From Myxococcales bacterium (GTDB taxonomy: Bacteria; Myxococcota; B64-G9), in NCBI GenBank assembly GCA_012798435.1, contig JAAZNF010000002.1:1-50654 (forward strand): DNA of 50,654 nucleotides, read 5' to 3'. A program made the position numbers and the translations under genes. The notes beneath the pieces are model-generated. The model did not search any database, was not told the DNA's origin, and saw only the letters and a program-made list of their open reading frames with translations. How positions within the stretch are numbered: the first letter of the stretch is position 1; each line of letters starts with the position of its first letter. Positions 10,607 through 17,227 of the stretch are shown here, one piece after another.

Positions 10607-11410
10607 CTAGATGGGTGCGCCCTTCGCCAAGGTTGACAGGTGGGCGTGCAGATCGCTGAAGGAATGCAGCCGCGCACCGAAGGGCGGCGGCTCGGGCCAC
10701 GCCCCGTTGCCTCCGAGCACCAGATCTATCTGGTGGCGCTGGCACGCCGCGCCGATCTGCGAAGCGATTTCCAGCATACGCTGCGGCTGGTTGGAGATGG
10801 CGGATGCCGACAAGGCCACCAGGCGCACAGGCGAGCGGTCGAGGAGGGAGGCGACCTCAGAGGCCGGCGTGGACGCCCCCAACCAGAGCGTCTGATAGCC
10901 GCCCTCGACCAGGCACAGCTCGGCCAACGAAAGCCCCAGCGTGTGTGTGTCGCCCTCGACGCTGGCGAGGGCCGCCAGGGGCGGATGGCTGGGGAGCGGG
11001 ATCGATTGCGTCATGCGGCCGATCGCTCGCGAAAACCCGTCCGAGAGCAGGTGCTCCTGGGCGATGCTCAGGTCGCCGGAACTCCAGCGGTCGCCGGTCT
11101 CGGTCAGCAGGCTCCCGACCTCGTCGGCGACGCGGAACCAGGCCCCCAGGCGCGATCGGCTCGACAGAAGGAAGGCATCGACTTCTTGCCGTCGGCCGGT
11201 CAGGAGCCAATCGAGCAAGGACTGAAGCGAAACACCTGCTGATGCCGGTCGGGTCTGCCGGGCAGCGAAGAGGAGCACATCCTGCCGGTCGAAACGGCGG
11301 TGTCCGCCCGGGGTACGCAACGAGCGCAGCAGTCCTTGATCCGACCAGCGCTTGATGGTCGATGGCTTTACTCCTAAAAGTTCTGCTGCTTTTACCGTGC
11401 TCAGAAGCAT
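10607..11410 (-). CDS. CarH/LitR-type B12-dependent MerR-family regulator
   Basis: The start is ATG 11410, with AGGAGG four bases upstream, not the longer frame. Residues 1-45 are a MerR-type winged helix (VKAAELLGVKPSTIKRWSDQG, then TPGGHRRF). Next is the helical cap with Trp109 and Glu119-His120, the W-x9-EH signature of adenosylcobalamin photoreceptors. The Rossmann cobalamin-binding domain follows with DTHTLG (His156 as lower axial ligand), SAS at 201-203 and LGGNG at 232-236. All signatures of a functional B12-binding, light-responsive repressor are present, and its 267 residues are close to the family norm. In known systems the dark AdoCbl tetramer binds DNA and light releases it. It is divergent from the DUF4397 lipoprotein gene, the likely target. 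Confidence 0.85.
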   Translation of the reverse strand: MLLSTVKAAELLGVKPSTIKRWSDQGLLRSLRTPGGHRRFDRQDVLLFAARQTRPASAGVSLQSLLDWLLTGRRQEVDAFLLSSRSRLGAWFRVADEVGSLLTETGDRWSSGDLSIAQEHLLSDGFSRAIGRMTQSIPLPSHPPLAALASVEGDTHTLGLSLAELCLVEGGYQTLWLGASTPASEVASLLDRSPVRLVALSASAISNQPQRMLEIASQIGAACQRHQIDLVLGGNGAWPEPPPFGARLHSFSDLHAHLSTLAKGAPI

Positions 11411-11433
11411 TTCGCCTCCTAAAAACAAAAATA

Positions 11434-11482: not shown

Positions 11483-11542
11483 ACTAACTACATGACAATA
11501 AATTATCAACAAAAAAAACCGCTAGTAAAAAGGAGAAAAATC

Positions 11543-12889
11543 ATGAAAACCGCAACGTTTTTGAGCGTTATCGTGGCTTCCGCCCTCATGCTCTCCTCCT
11601 GTGGCAGTGATGACGGGGTACCGCAGTTCGGAAAGGCCAGTGTAAGGGCGTTACACCTGTCACCGGATGCACCCGCCGTGGACGTCTTCCTCGGCGAGAC
11701 TGCGGGCGCAGAAGACCTGACCTTCGGAAACGGCTCATCTTATGTAGAAGTGTCTGCCGGGAGCTACGATGTATCCATCTCCCCGGCCGGTCAAGGTAAA
11801 GGGGCGAGTGTCCTGACTGTGAAAGGCATTCCGTTCGCGGAGGGCAAGAGCTACACGGCCTTCGCATTCGACAGGCTCTCCATGCTCAAGGCCGGAGTGA
11901 TCGAAGACCGCGAGGATGGAATGAATTCGGGTTCGATCCGGGTGAGGGCCATTCACGCTGCTGCGGGGGTCGGCCAGGTGGACATCTGGAACATCCCATC
12001 CACAGGCTCGCCCAGCGCCTTGATTGAGGATTTCGAATTCGGCGCGGTCGGCCCCGATCTCGACTTGCCGGCGGGCGCTTACACCTTGGGCTTCGACGTC
12101 GACAACGACGCGAAACCCGACCTGATTTTCGAATTGCCTGAACTCCCGTCCGGCACACGGGCCAATGTCTTCGCGGTGTCTGACAGCCAGGGAAATGTCG
12201 CTCTTCTCGCGCAGTCCCAGGACGGAAGCGTTGCCAAGATCGCTCCTCGAGCAAAGCCGGACCCCAGCTCCATCCGAGTCCTGCACCTGGGGCGAGACGT
12301 CGGCGGTGTGGACATCTGGGCCAACGGCGCCGGCCCGGCGGTCGAAGGACTGGTGTTCTCAAAATCGACCGACTACCTGACGCTCGACAGCGGCACCTAC
12401 ACCTTCGACGTGGTGCCCGCGGGCGGCGTCATCGCAGACAGCGCCCTGAAGATCGCCGGTCTCCTGCTCGGTCCCGGGGTCTCCTATACCGCGGTGGCCT
12501 ATGGCGACGCCAGATCGGGTAAGCTGTCCGCCGTCTTGCTGGAGGAGGATCTCTCCAGCGTTCCCGGCGGGCAGATTCGCGTGCGGCCGATTCACGCCGC
12601 CTACGGCGTTGGCCAGGTCGACATCTGGAAGGTGAACGGCACACCGGCCGAGCTATACAGCGAAGTCGACTACGGCGCGGTCGGCGCCTACGCGTTGCTG
12701 CCGGCCGACAGCCCGATCGTGCTCGGCCTGGACGTCAACGACGATGCCACTCCCGACGTGACCTTCGACATCCCCGGCCTGCCTGCCGGCACGATCGCCA
12801 ACTTGTTCGCGGTCACCGACAAAGACGGCAACCCGTGGATCCTGGCCCAGCTCGGCAGGAACTCTACCACCCTCATTCCCGCCAACTGA
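11543..12889 (+). CDS. Lipoprotein with four DUF4397-like repeats
   Basis: ATG 11543 has AAGGAG at good spacing; the in-frame ATG at 11492 lacks one. The signal ends LSSC (Cys20). The protein is built from four repeats of about 100 residues, each opening with a strand like VRALHLSPDAPAVDVF, IRVRAIHAAAGVGQVDIW, IRVLHLGRDVGGVDIW or IRVRPIHAAYGVGQVDIW, followed by a Gly-x-Tyr strand and an FAVSD or AYGDA-type strand. This is the DUF4397 beta-sandwich repeat of secreted and surface proteins. Repeats 2 and 4 are closest to each other (both carry a VDNDAKPDLIF or VNDDATPDVTF calcium-like Asp run), so the pair probably arose by duplication. Divergent from the CarH-type regulator and likely under its control. 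Confidence 0.85.
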   Translation: MKTATFLSVIVASALMLSSCGSDDGVPQFGKASVRALHLSPDAPAVDVFLGETAGAEDLTFGNGSSYVEVSAGSYDVSISPAGQGKGASVLTVKGIPFAEGKSYTAFAFDRLSMLKAGVIEDREDGMNSGSIRVRAIHAAAGVGQVDIWNIPSTGSPSALIEDFEFGAVGPDLDLPAGAYTLGFDVDNDAKPDLIFELPELPSGTRANVFAVSDSQGNVALLAQSQDGSVAKIAPRAKPDPSSIRVLHLGRDVGGVDIWANGAGPAVEGLVFSKSTDYLTLDSGTYTFDVVPAGGVIADSALKIAGLLLGPGVSYTAVAYGDARSGKLSAVLLEEDLSSVPGGQIRVRPIHAAYGVGQVDIWKVNGTPAELYSEVDYGAVGAYALLPADSPIVLGLDVNDDATPDVTFDIPGLPAGTIANLFAVTDKDGNPWILAQLGRNSTTLIPAN

Positions 12890-12957: not shown

Positions 12958-13758
12958 CTAGACCTTGCCGATCCCCATTTTGCCGAGCGCGCGCAGGATG
13001 GCGCCGTCCACGTCCCGGGCCAGCCGGGCATAGGCCTCCTCCTGCAACTCGCCGGTGTGCTCGTCCATGAAGATCTTCTTGAGCTCGATGGAGGGGCACA
13101 CCACCTTGTCCGGGTGACGGGCCTGGAGCCGCTTGTGGACGTAGCCGCCCTTGAAGATTACGTTCTCGCCGACGGTGACGGGCCGGCCCGCGAACTCGAT
13201 CTTGCGAAACTCCTCCAGCATGTCGTCCAACAGCGGGCGGAAGCGGGGATGGGACTCGATGGTGCCCAGGTTGATGCAGGGTTTCGACAGGTCCTCCCAC
13301 CAGGCCGGCACCGGCTTCTCGCGCTGGTAGTTGTAGGAGTGGAAGTCAAGGACCACGGCCCGGCCATGCTGCGCCACTGCCTCGTCGACGAGCTGGTCCA
13401 AAAACGCCATCGCCTCGCGGTGCCGCGCCCGGGAGCGCTCGACGATGTCTGGCGGAAGCGGGGCGCGCCACGGCACGATACCCCAACACATGTCCGCGCT
13501 GAGGTACACGCAGGTCTCCTCCGGCCGGTTCAGGTCGACCTCGAAGCGACTGGTCTCGGTCCACACGGCGATCGAAAACGGCGCGAGCAGCCGCTCCGTG
13601 TAGGGGTCTTCCTCGTACCGCCGGATGGCCTCGGTGGGAGCCGACAGCGGGCGCACCTCCTCCCGCAGCTCGTGCCCAGCGTGGATGGCCAGCGCGATCA
13701 CTGGTGAGGCGGCGTCCTTGCGAAAGTGGAGAATGCCGGTGGGGCTCGTGTGTCCCAT
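12958..13758 (-). CDS. N-formylglutamate amidohydrolase-like protein
   Basis: The start is ATG 13758 with GGAGG upstream; the open frame continues further but only as the shadow of the divergent gene. The 266-residue cytoplasmic protein has the features of the FGase (HutG2-type) zinc amidohydrolases: AIHAGHELREE near the N-terminus, VVLDFHSYNYQ in the middle, a NLGTIESHPRFRP segment, and VGENVIFKGGYVHKR near the end. Known members cleave N-formyl-glutamate, but FGase homologues also occur in operons with ATP-grasp ligases, where they are thought to trim or release amide-linked products. Here it is divergent from such an operon, 123 bp away, so that role is more likely than histidine degradation; no hut genes are nearby. 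Confidence 0.8.
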   Translation of the reverse strand: MGHTSPTGILHFRKDAASPVIALAIHAGHELREEVRPLSAPTEAIRRYEEDPYTERLLAPFSIAVWTETSRFEVDLNRPEETCVYLSADMCWGIVPWRAPLPPDIVERSRARHREAMAFLDQLVDEAVAQHGRAVVLDFHSYNYQREKPVPAWWEDLSKPCINLGTIESHPRFRPLLDDMLEEFRKIEFAGRPVTVGENVIFKGGYVHKRLQARHPDKVVCPSIELKKIFMDEHTGELQEEAYARLARDVDGAILRALGKMGIGKV

Positions 13759-13809
13759 GGGTGGGGCCTCCTTCGCCCGGGAGTGTGCCACCGTCTTTTC
13801 GCGAAGAAA

Positions 13810-13843
13810 ACCCAAATCAGTGGCGAACCGGTGCGGTTTGGGT
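13810..13843. promoter_or_regulatory. Inverted repeats in the divergent amidoligase promoter region
   Basis: ACCCAAA (13810-13816) and TTTGGGT (13837-13843) are inverted around a second inverted repeat, AACCG (13826-13830) / CGGTT (13834-13838). They lie between the divergent FGase-like and ATP-grasp genes, a natural place for one operator controlling both. No known regulator can be named. Confidence 0.3.
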
Positions 13844-13881
13844 GTAAAAGCGGTCTTTATCCGGACGACGAGGTCAAGCGC

Positions 13882-14955
13882 ATGAATCCCAAGAGAAGCG
13901 AGCCCAAGGTCCTCGGCATCCTGCGCGGGCGCGAGAGCGGTTTTCCCGAGGATCTGATCCGGGCGGTCGAGTCCCAGGGCCGGGGGATGATCCGGGCGGA
14001 GATGGCCTCCATCGGCGCGGAGCCGGCCGAGCGGCCCCTCCCCTACGATCTGATCTACGATCGCATCTCCCACGACTACCCGATGTACCACGTGCTGCTG
14101 AGGGCGGCCGCGGCGCACGGCACCTACGTGGTGCCCAACCCCTTCCTCACCGCGGCGGACGACAAGTTCCTCGGCGCGGCCGTCGCTCACCGGCTGGGGA
14201 TCCCCTCGCCGCGGACCGTGGTGCTGCCGCTGTCGGGGAGCCTCATGCTCCACGACATCACGGCGCATTCCTTGCGCAACCTGCGCTGGCTCGACGACAA
14301 GGCGTGGGGGGCGGTGTTCGACTACGTCGGCTTCCCGGCCTGGCTGAAGCCGTGCTCGGCCGGCGGCTGGCTGGGCGTGTTCAAGGTACACTCTCCCGAG
14401 GAGTTCTTCCGCATTTACAACCAGGCCATCTTCCACGGCGAGATGATCAAGAACGACCCGGCCGCGGACCAGGCGGTGAGGAACTGGCTCGGCCGCACCA
14501 CGGTGATGATCCTCCAGCAGGACATCCCCTGGGAGCGCTTCGCCCGCTGCTGGTACATCGGCGGCGAGGTGCTGGTGGCGCGCTACACCCCGCCGCGCAA
14601 GAAGGACGGCGAGGTCTATGGCAAGTACCAGGACGACCCGGGGTTCTTCGGGCCAGCGCTCTACGAGCGGTTGCGCCGGTACGTCCAGCAGGTGAACTCG
14701 GTCATGGGCTACGAGATCAACACGGCCGAGTTCGCCATCCGGGGCGACGAACCGTACCTCATCGACTTTTTGAACTTCACCTGCGACTTCAACCCCAAGT
14801 CGATCGCGCCTTTCTACGAGCGCTGCCTGGAGCTGGTGGCCCGCTACCTGACCCGTTGTCTGACCGACCCCGCGGCGCGCTTGCAGGCGCAAAACCGCGA
14901 CCGCGCCTGGGGGCTGCTCGCCACCGGGCAAGCCGCGCCGAGCGCCCGACCCTGA
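13882..14955 (+). CDS. ATP-grasp ligase (RimK/D-Ala ligase-like)
   Basis: ATG 13882 follows GAGGT at acceptable spacing. The 357-residue protein has a pre-ATP-grasp region (DLIYDRISHDYPMYHVLL, then NPFLTAADDK) and then ATP-grasp signatures: Lys156 in FPAWLKPCSAGGWLGVFKV, the nucleotide-binding strand VMILQQDIPWERF, the GEVLVARY strand, and a metal-binding end YEINTAEFAIRG, YLIDFLNF, CDFNP. Such enzymes activate a carboxylate as acyl phosphate and join it to an amine. It is the first gene of a three-gene operon with a second, permuted ATP-grasp enzyme 23 bp downstream and an S51-like hydrolase. The substrate cannot be read from sequence; an amino-acid or peptide ligase is the best guess. Confidence 0.8.
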   Translation: MNPKRSEPKVLGILRGRESGFPEDLIRAVESQGRGMIRAEMASIGAEPAERPLPYDLIYDRISHDYPMYHVLLRAAAAHGTYVVPNPFLTAADDKFLGAAVAHRLGIPSPRTVVLPLSGSLMLHDITAHSLRNLRWLDDKAWGAVFDYVGFPAWLKPCSAGGWLGVFKVHSPEEFFRIYNQAIFHGEMIKNDPAADQAVRNWLGRTTVMILQQDIPWERFARCWYIGGEVLVARYTPPRKKDGEVYGKYQDDPGFFGPALYERLRRYVQQVNSVMGYEINTAEFAIRGDEPYLIDFLNFTCDFNPKSIAPFYERCLELVARYLTRCLTDPAARLQAQNRDRAWGLLATGQAAPSARP

Positions 14956-14978
14956 GCACGGACCGGAGGAACACGACC

Positions 14979-16319
14979 ATGGCAATCGAACAGGTGATCC
15001 AGGAGTACCGCGCCTATATGCAGGCCCGCCCCCGGGAGATGGTGTCCGAGCACGCGGACCTGCGGCGCCGGCTGACCGAACGCAACTGCCTCTACAAGGG
15101 ACAGCCCTTCCCCATGTTCATGATGCCGCACTTCATCTCGCGCGAGCAGCACCGGCTGCTCCAGCGCGCCTGCCAGAACCTCGTCTCGGCGGTCGAGAAG
15201 GTGACGGACCTCTACTTCGGCGATCCCGCCTTCGCCGCCTCCTTCGGCCTGAGCGAGGGCGAGCGAGTGCTGATGGAGATCCCGCCGCGGCTTTCGCGTA
15301 AGATCGTGCTGTGCCGGCCGGACGGCTTTCTGGCCGGCGACGGGCTGTCCTTCATCGAGATCAACGCCGACAGCCCGGCGGGCATGGTCGACGGCGACAT
15401 CCTGTCCGAAGAGTTCTTCAAGCTCTCGCCGGTCGAGGACATCCGCCGCCGCCACACCGTCGAGCCCGAGCGCATGAAGGAGCGCTACCTTACGGTGCTG
15501 CTTGCCAAGTGGCGCGAGTTCGGCGGCACGGCCGCCCCGCACATCGGCATCGTCGACTGGGACGAGGTGCAGCCGCGCACCGAGTTCTACCTCTTGGCCG
15601 AGTTCTTCGAAGCGCACGGCTACCCCGCCCGGGTGGGCGACCCCCGCGCCCTGGAGTTCCGGGGTGGCAAGCTGTGGCTCGGCGACTTTCGCATCGATCT
15701 CATGGTGCGGCGGGTGATCACGCGGGAGCTCGCCGAGAAGCTCGACCAGGTGAAGGGCCTGCTGGCCGCCGCCCGGGAAGGCGCGGTGTGCATCGTCAAC
15801 CCGTTCCGCTCGAAGCTGGCCTCCTTCAAGGGCATCTTCAAGGTGCTGACCGACCCCGAGCACCGTCACCTGTTCGATCGCGAGGAGCAGGAGGTCATCG
15901 ACCGGCACATCCCCTGGACCCGGCAGGTCTCGCCCGGGAGAGTGGACTTCCACGGCGAGCGATTGGAGATGGAGCAACTGCTCTCGCGGCACAAGACCCG
16001 CCTGGTGCTGAAGCCCACGCACGGCTACGCCGGTAAGGACGTGTTCGTCGGCGCGGACGCCTCCGACGCCGAGTGGTCCGACGTCATCGCCAGATCGCTC
16101 TCGGGTCAGGCCAACTACATCGTGCAGGAGTTCGTGCCCATCCCCGAGGCCGAGTTCCCGGCCTTCGATCCCGAGCTGGTCTTCGTCCCCAAGAAGGTCA
16201 ACATCAACCCCTTCGTGCTCGACGGCGCCTACGCGGGGTGCATGTCGCGCGTGTCGGACTCCTCCATCATCAACCTGGCCCGCGGCGGCGGCCAACAACC
16301 GACCTTCGTGTGCGCATGA
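14979..16319 (+). CDS. Circularly permuted ATP-grasp enzyme (glutathionylspermidine-synthase-like)
   Basis: ATG 14979 follows GGAGGA (14965-14970). The 446-residue protein has the permuted order: the metal-binding FIEINADSPAG segment (Glu127, Asn129, Asp131) comes first, then a central region with FYLLAEFFEAHGYPARVGDP, then the nucleotide-binding LVLKPTHGYAGKDVFVG and NYIVQEFVP, ending LARGGGQQPTFV, a hallmark of this superfamily. Relatives ligate amines or amino acids to carboxylates, as in glutathionylspermidine synthesis. Its gene overlaps the next by four bases (ATGA), so the two are translated together. With the ATP-grasp gene before it, it may catalyse a second condensation step. Confidence 0.8.
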   Translation: MAIEQVIQEYRAYMQARPREMVSEHADLRRRLTERNCLYKGQPFPMFMMPHFISREQHRLLQRACQNLVSAVEKVTDLYFGDPAFAASFGLSEGERVLMEIPPRLSRKIVLCRPDGFLAGDGLSFIEINADSPAGMVDGDILSEEFFKLSPVEDIRRRHTVEPERMKERYLTVLLAKWREFGGTAAPHIGIVDWDEVQPRTEFYLLAEFFEAHGYPARVGDPRALEFRGGKLWLGDFRIDLMVRRVITRELAEKLDQVKGLLAAAREGAVCIVNPFRSKLASFKGIFKVLTDPEHRHLFDREEQEVIDRHIPWTRQVSPGRVDFHGERLEMEQLLSRHKTRLVLKPTHGYAGKDVFVGADASDAEWSDVIARSLSGQANYIVQEFVPIPEAEFPAFDPELVFVPKKVNINPFVLDGAYAGCMSRVSDSSIINLARGGGQQPTFVCA

Positions 16320-17227
16320 AACCGACCGAACTGGTGTACAGCTCGCACGACCGCTGCGAGTACCTGCACCGCGAGTGGCTGGTGCAGCGCGCGCTGGAGA
16401 GCCCCGACAACAAGACCTTGCTGTACCTCCCCTGCTCGTCGCGCTCGCGCGGCGACCAGGAGTTCAGCTGGGGAACCTTCGCCTGGTATCTCGAGCGCTT
16501 CCGGCAGTACGGCCTCGAGCCGCGGCACTTCTTCTGGGACGAGAACCTGCGGCGCGAGGACGTGCAGCTACTCTTCGACTGGCTGCGCTACTCCCGCGTT
16601 GTCATCCTGGGCGGCGGACGCATCCAGCTCGGCCTCGAGCGCTACCGCGCCCTGGGCGGGCGGTACTTCGGCAACCCTGACGCCTTCGTGCAGACGCTGC
16701 TGGCCCGCCAGGCCGACGGCCTGCTCACGGCGGGGTTCTCGGCCGGGGCGGCGCAACTGTGCGAGCACAGCTGCGACGAGGACGTGCCCACCTTCGGGCT
16801 CATCGCCAAGACCGTGGTCACGCTGCACCACGAGCCGGCCGCGCGGGGACACCTGGACTACCTGGCCCACCGCCACCCCGACTGCCTGGTGTTCGGCCTG
16901 CCCAACGACTCGGGGATCGCGGTGAGCCGCGGCTTCACCGAGCGCGGGAACTACTGGCAGATCATCCAGTTCATCATCGACTGCTCCTGGGACCGGCCCG
17001 AGGACGCGCACCACATCAAGACCCGCCAGGGGGTGCCGATCGAGCACCGCTACCTGGACGGGCGGGAGTGGCGCTTCAACGGCGGCGACATCCTGCTGCG
17101 GGTCTTCTATCAAAACGACGGCTGGGAGGGCTGGATCAAGCGGCCGGAGGTGCCGGTCTTCCACGAATACGGAACCCAGCGCGAGTGCGGCTACCGCTCG
17201 GTCGAGGAGATCCTGGGGAGCCGCTGA
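16316..17227 (+). CDS. S51-family-like serine hydrolase (cyanophycinase/dipeptidase E-like)
   Basis: ATG 16316 overlaps the previous stop as ATGA. The 303-residue protein shows a VVILGGG strand at residues 95-101 and the nucleophile elbow TAGFSAGAAQLCE with Ser142. This is the GxSAGA pattern of S51 peptidases such as cyanophycinase and peptidase E. His179 lies 37 residues later, the same spacing as the Ser-His pair of peptidase E. There is no signal peptide. S51 enzymes cut aspartyl or isopeptide bonds, so with two ATP-grasp enzymes and an FGase-like protein it probably processes or recycles the pathway's amide product. A glutamine-amidotransferase-like fold without peptidase activity is the alternative. 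Confidence 0.75.
   Translation: MKPTELVYSSHDRCEYLHREWLVQRALESPDNKTLLYLPCSSRSRGDQEFSWGTFAWYLERFRQYGLEPRHFFWDENLRREDVQLLFDWLRYSRVVILGGGRIQLGLERYRALGGRYFGNPDAFVQTLLARQADGLLTAGFSAGAAQLCEHSCDEDVPTFGLIAKTVVTLHHEPAARGHLDYLAHRHPDCLVFGLPNDSGIAVSRGFTERGNYWQIIQFIIDCSWDRPEDAHHIKTRQGVPIEHRYLDGREWRFNGGDILLRVFYQNDGWEGWIKRPEVPVFHEYGTQRECGYRSVEEILGSR

Follow-up and report, generated by a model that had tools for sequence, protein, structure and literature searches.

What might a bacterium make with two unlike amide-forming ligases, a serine hydrolase and a zinc amidohydrolase encoded side by side? This question is raised by a compact four-gene island of a Myxococcales bacterium (GenBank assembly GCA_012798435.1) from a deep branch of the Myxococcota, located in a stretch of 50,654 nucleotides of contig JAAZNF010000002.1 that was analysed as a whole and is hereafter called the window. 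The island encodes a linear ATP-grasp ligase (AG1), a circularly permuted ATP-grasp ligase (AG2) and an S51-family serine hydrolase (S51), with an FGase-family gene running divergently from them. Because two such ligases and the serine hydrolase recur together in two further phyla, the island probably makes and trims a small peptide-like molecule. We favour, with moderate confidence, a non-ribosomal amide-bond pathway of two ATP-driven condensations and a coupled hydrolysis. The features of the island are as follows.

12958-13758, minus strand: FGase-family (PF05013) zinc amidohydrolase gene, 266 amino acids (Pfam match over cut-off)
13759-13881, no strand: divergent intergenic region between the FGase and AG1 genes, 123 bp
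13882-14955, plus strand: AG1, linear ATP-grasp ligase (LysX/Ddl/RimK-like), 357 amino acids (PDB profile matches and structural model)
14979-16319, plus strand: AG2, circularly permuted ATP-grasp ligase, 446 amino acids (CP_ATPgrasp_2 match over cut-off)
16316-17227, plus strand: S51-family serine hydrolase with a C-terminal extension, 303 amino acids (model fold and conserved triad)

The divergent FGase gene and the operon order AG1-AG2-S51 described in an initial annotation of this DNA are thus confirmed, as is the 4-bp ATGA overlap between the AG2 and S51 genes; a GGAGGA stretch lies upstream of AG2. GC content at third codon positions is 0.91-0.95 in all four genes, which argues that they are real coding sequences. 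Searching the host genome with each of the four proteins returned one significant match apiece.

Two ligases and S51 are linked in other phyla

A scan of genome contigs with S51 gave 11 loci. The closest relatives come from Elusimicrobiota (Elusimicrobia; locus L087, 77% identity) and Riflebacteria (L088, 68% identity), and in both loci S51 is accompanied by an AG1 homologue, a permuted-type ligase of 532-539 amino acids and an M20 hydrolase. A further search of the phylum added two Elusimicrobiota loci: L126, which has the same content, and L127, where the contig edge falls within the ligase behind S51. The S51 gene follows the permuted ligase immediately, overlapping it in the window and separated from it by 3 bp in L087 and 18 bp in L126.

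In a tree of S51 proteins, those of the window, Elusimicrobiota and Riflebacteria form one clade (support 97/96 and 100/100). Ligases adjoin S51 in five of the six clade members, the exception being L089, which lies on a contig of 6.1 kb. Within the stretches read, the searched ligases stand beside no other S51 protein of the tree, nor beside further S51 relatives found in the phyla to which the Riflebacteria and Armatimonadetes loci belong. A rough estimate puts the probability that an AG1 gene lies within 5 kb of S51 at about 0.0024 per genome, and at 6e-6 for both genomes. With the trio present again in two further phyla, we consider the arrangement to be more than chance. The linked unit is a trio, in which one ligase of the AG1 family and one of the permuted type accompany S51 of this clade, with a metallo-amidohydrolase nearby, and the proposal that the two ATP-grasp ligases and S51 belong together is borne out.

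Several observations weigh against the pathway as we read it. The FGase gene was found with the trio in no genome other than that of the window, so that the four-gene co-occurrence proposed initially was not found elsewhere and the complete set was seen only here. The permuted-type ligases of the other phyla belong to a different subfamily (about 535 amino acids; phmmer E-value 3e-5 to AG2) and matched no Pfam family; a profile comparison between them and AG2 reached 88% probability only when myxobacterial relatives were added, and 11.5% without them. In the AG1 tree, where the linked proteins from Elusimicrobiota and Riflebacteria group together (support 99/97), the window's AG1 sits on a long branch that has no certain position. 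As its S51 partner is nevertheless 77% identical to the Elusimicrobiota one, an exchange of ligases or a shift in their function may have taken place. Neither a transporter nor a regulator was identified.

Operons of this general kind are known. In 2009 Iyer, Abhiman, Burroughs and Aravind (Mol Biosyst 5:1636) reportedly used comparative genomics to describe operons in which peptidases of unrelated folds accompany ligases of the ATP-grasp and GCS2/glutamine-synthetase-like types. Neighbourhoods of that description also surround relatives of AG1 and AG2, whereas the island of the window has no GCS2 gene. The network pattern of that study, two amide ligases linked with peptidases, is seen in the trio in Elusimicrobiota and Riflebacteria. 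In the literature we found nothing on a pairing of S51 with a permuted ATP-grasp enzyme. The present combination is a variant and does not open a new category.

S51 is a divergent hydrolase with a conserved Ser-His-Asp triad

S51 scores 14.9 bits against Peptidase_S51 (PF03575), under the cut-off of 23.9. The ten best PDB matches of its structural model (mean predicted local distance difference test score, pLDDT, 83.6) are all of peptidase E or cyanophycinase type (E-values 1.9e-8 to 7.6e-6). Identity to solved members is 13-16%. The protein represents a divergent subfamily, and we file it by fold and triad instead of by Pfam score.

Ser142, His171 and Asp198 are invariant among 11 homologues. 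The initial annotation had pointed to Ser142 and His179; Ser142 holds, while His179 is variable and is not the likely catalytic histidine. His171 aligns with a cyanophycinase histidine (His174 once tag residues are discounted). From this conservation, Ser142-His171-Asp198 is the predicted triad. Peptidase E, cyanophycinase and MccG, the MEROPS S51 enzymes, share the fold, and the Ser-His-Asp order is that of MccG, whose triad is Ser133-His168-Asp196 (PMC9239234). Unlike the solved members, S51 of the window has a C-terminal extension that carries an HIKTRQG motif. Aligned to CphB and homologues, it also lacks the DQHF-R-R-R stretch of cyanophycinase, an arginine-rich segment that we take to be cyanophycin-binding, and has TLHHEPAARGHL instead.

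In another reading, S51 would serve self-protection or detoxification and not maturation: it would destroy a toxic aspartyl- or isoaspartyl-amide that the two ligases produce, as MccG does for microcin C. MccG-type S51 peptidases confer immunity by cleaving isoaspartyl-nucleotides, and some lie inside biosynthetic clusters while most stand alone (PMC9239234); the S51 relatives found here are likewise mostly stand-alone. Against this, neither an export gene nor a resistance gene was recognised next to the island, and the position of S51 directly behind the permuted ligase in Myxococcota and Elusimicrobiota suits a pathway step equally well. We regard self-protection as unlikely.

The two ligases stay below the curated NCBIfam cut-offs

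AG1 scores 14.0 bits against Dala_Dala_lig_C, under the cut-off of 24. A profile of its family matches biotin and pyruvate carboxylases in the PDB (biotin carboxylase best, 1.9e-11) as well as D-Ala-D-Ala ligases (Ddl, 1.3e-6). The AG1 model (pLDDT 82.0) has PDB matches between 2e-14 and 4e-11, with ArgX (2.3e-14) the closest solved fold, followed by DdlB (2.5e-12) and RimK (3e-11), and it additionally matches graspetide ligases. K95, E283, D295 and N298 are invariant among 22 homologues, and K156 and G160-W163 are at least 90% conserved. Presumably, as elsewhere in the family, these are the two ATP-binding lysines, the Gly-rich loop and the acidic and Asn residues that bind Mg. AG1 thereby has both the fold and the lysines, Gly-rich loop and metal-ligand residues of the ATP-grasp superfamily. 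NCBIfam scores for AG1 range from 10.5 to 18 bits against cut-offs of at least 143, LysX being absent from the list, and the R2K-clade score of its relatives in L087 and L088 is below cut-off. As the model matches ArgX, Ddl, RimK and graspetide ligases alike, we describe AG1 as a LysX/Ddl/RimK-type ligase with no specific assignment.

AG2 passes the cut-offs of CP_ATPgrasp_2 (PF14403; 36.5 bits, cut-off 32) and PF04174 (24.2 bits, cut-off 23.1). With the GSP_synth profile it scores 16.8 bits, under the cut-off of 29.3, and it is not assigned as a glutathionylspermidine synthetase. K345, R424 and N432 are invariant. Its profile matches a putative glutathionylspermidine synthase (3n6x), the ligase Cp1B (9cjn) and YjfC (7uk6) in the PDB, the last two weakly (2.5e-4 and 1.5e-3). 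Cp1B, an ATP-grasp enzyme of the E-64 pathway, has been characterised as amide-forming; it acts there before a second amide-forming enzyme that is an ANL amide bond synthetase and not an ATP-grasp enzyme; the same study names YgiC and YjfC peptidylpolyamine synthetases (PMC12568646).

Do the ligases and S51 then serve a pathway already described, such as cyanophycin turnover, LysW-dependent lysine or arginine synthesis, production of a graspetide (a ribosomally synthesised and post-translationally modified peptide) or glutathionylspermidine metabolism? Each has some resemblance to offer: cyanophycinase belongs to S51, AG1 is closest to ArgX and matches graspetide ligases too, and AG2 is related to the putative glutathionylspermidine synthase. 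The M20 hydrolase beside the ligases in the other phyla is reminiscent of LysK. Nonetheless, the curated NCBIfam cut-offs, including that of LysX, are reached by none of the four island proteins, in line with the new pathway that the initial annotation had held possible, and the missing DQHF-R-R-R stretch argues against cyanophycin. A LysW carrier, which the LysX/ArgX amino-group carrier pathway employs, was not found beside the trio. We therefore consider any of these pathways highly improbable.

Candidates for a graspetide precursor or LysW carrier were sought and rejected: the gaps of the island hold no convincing peptide open reading frame, the only small ones called between the FGase and AG1 genes having GTG or TTG starts and overlapping the AG1 start, and no LysW-like small zinc-finger (Cys-pair) frame stands beside the trio in the window, L087, L088 or L126. 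The earlier statement that no precursor peptide, adenylation domain, non-ribosomal peptide synthetase (NRPS) or polyketide synthase gene adjoins the island holds, and no LysW gene is in view there.

The FGase gene may or may not belong to the unit

The FGase protein exceeds the PF05013 cut-off (81.5 bits versus 28.9; E-value 1.3e-22), and H26, H29, E73, D75, H140 and E225 are invariant in an alignment with three homologues. With the HutG equivalog TIGR02017 (N-formylglutamate deformylase) it reaches 28 bits, far from the cut-off of 278.75. By these profile scores the protein is assigned at the level of the PF05013 family and not as HutG.

It is the divergent layout, and this only, that suggests membership of the unit. 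A sizeable possibility, although we put it at less than even, is that the unit is AG1-AG2-S51 and that the FGase merely happens to lie next to it and has its function elsewhere. The trio of Elusimicrobiota and Riflebacteria has no homologous FGase gene at its side, and no sigma-70-type promoter consensus was found in the 123-bp gap. Conversely, the two starts are head to head 123 bp apart, and an M20 metallo-amidohydrolase accompanies the trio in the other phyla. M20 and FGase enzymes are placed in the same broad zinc-hydrolase group (Pfam clan), on which ground the FGase may take over the function of M20, even though no other genome showed it together with the trio.

FGase relatives also lead to the MATCAP/QEGLA (TIGR02421) operon, which combines an FGase, MATCAP and an ATP-grasp gene. 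MATCAP/QEGLA genes adjoin FGase relatives in another genome (G190, locus L073) and in Sinorhizobium (L155), the latter locus also containing a glutathione-synthetase-like ATP-grasp gene. The closest AG2 relative (34% identity; genome G003, locus L031, same family as the window's genome) is beside MATCAP and Sir2. The island could accordingly be a rearranged relative of this operon that inherited FGase and AG2, lost MATCAP and later added AG1 and S51. However, no MATCAP gene was found in the window's genome, AG1 and S51 are extra to the operon, and the trio with its AG1-type ligase and S51 exists with neither FGase nor MATCAP in other phyla. Such an origin appears improbable to us, about as much so as self-protection.

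The surroundings of L031 (3849-9603) read PTA/acetate-kinase-like gene, Sir2, permuted ATP-grasp, MATCAP. A Sir2-like gene adjoins MATCAP in L154 as well, in another genome of the same class.

A proposed order of steps

Under the amide-bond pathway that we favour, AG1 and AG2 would each use ATP to turn a carboxylate into an acyl-phosphate and then link it to an amine, so that two such steps would give a small peptide or peptidyl-amine. S51 would act on an intermediate or the product and cut an amide there at an acidic or isopeptide-linked residue, for trimming, release or turnover. The metallo-amidohydrolase, FGase here and M20 in the other phyla, would remove an N-acyl or terminal group. The simplest mechanism has S51 cleavage following or balancing two ligations; that the steps are sequential, their order, the bond cut by S51 and the participation of FGase are what we infer. 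Removal of a protecting or leaving group, as proposed initially, thus stands as one possible role, but maturation, turnover and immunity may each apply and are alike at the level of sequence. Taken as a whole, the initial interpretation is partly supported.

As a more speculative extension, which we would call a long shot, at least three phyla may share an unrecognised pathway: a peptide-like molecule would be built by two ATP-grasp ligases of unlike type, and a dedicated S51 enzyme would remove a temporary acidic carrier or protecting residue, an amino-group-carrier logic with no carrier protein. If so, protecting-group chemistry would come with simple, portable amide-forming enzymes. The trio is in any case a small testable unit, three core genes in three phyla from lineages known mainly from metagenomes, and its product is predicted by no curated family or adjacent gene.

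Relatives of the parts occur apart

Homologues of the parts do occur separately, which the initial annotation had named as evidence against its proposal; this is the case for many Myxococcota relatives and is offset by the trio in two other phyla. AG1 relatives were found in 40 of 195 Myxococcota genomes, and a GCS2 ligase and/or GATase-like gene adjoins them in 10 of the 13 close Myxococcota loci read. In L082-L084, AG1-like ligases lie near a remote S51 protein, an esterase and other ATP-grasps, two of these three loci also having GCS2 and an AstE-like gene (named by eye). An AG2 relative in L156 adjoins a GCS2-family ligase. The plasmid collection, searched with S51 and AG1, gave no match.

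Some of these neighbourhoods are notable in themselves. In Myxococcota, L075 (3601-14309) has an S8-like peptidase, a GATase-like gene, an AG1-type ligase, a GCS2 ligase, an uncharacterised gene (c8), an ATP-grasp, an M61-like peptidase and an esterase-like gene, and gene sets resembling it are found in several genera. A LanB-like (lantibiotic dehydratase N-terminal) gene lies between two AG2-type ligases in L042 (6085-11437), from G064, a Myxococcota genome of large size. In L034 (4402-13000), a condensation/adenylation (NRPS-like) protein is encoded within a few genes of AG2-type ligases, with two further proteins of 607-645 amino acids nearby, one of which was scanned and matched no Pfam family; L035, L037, L039, L044 and L045 have a similar layout.

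In the window itself, a DUF4397 protein with four matched stretches (11492-12889) immediately precedes the island. A MerR-type regulator with B12-binding domain matches (10607-11413, minus strand), 1.5 kb off the island, is a possible light or B12 sensor.

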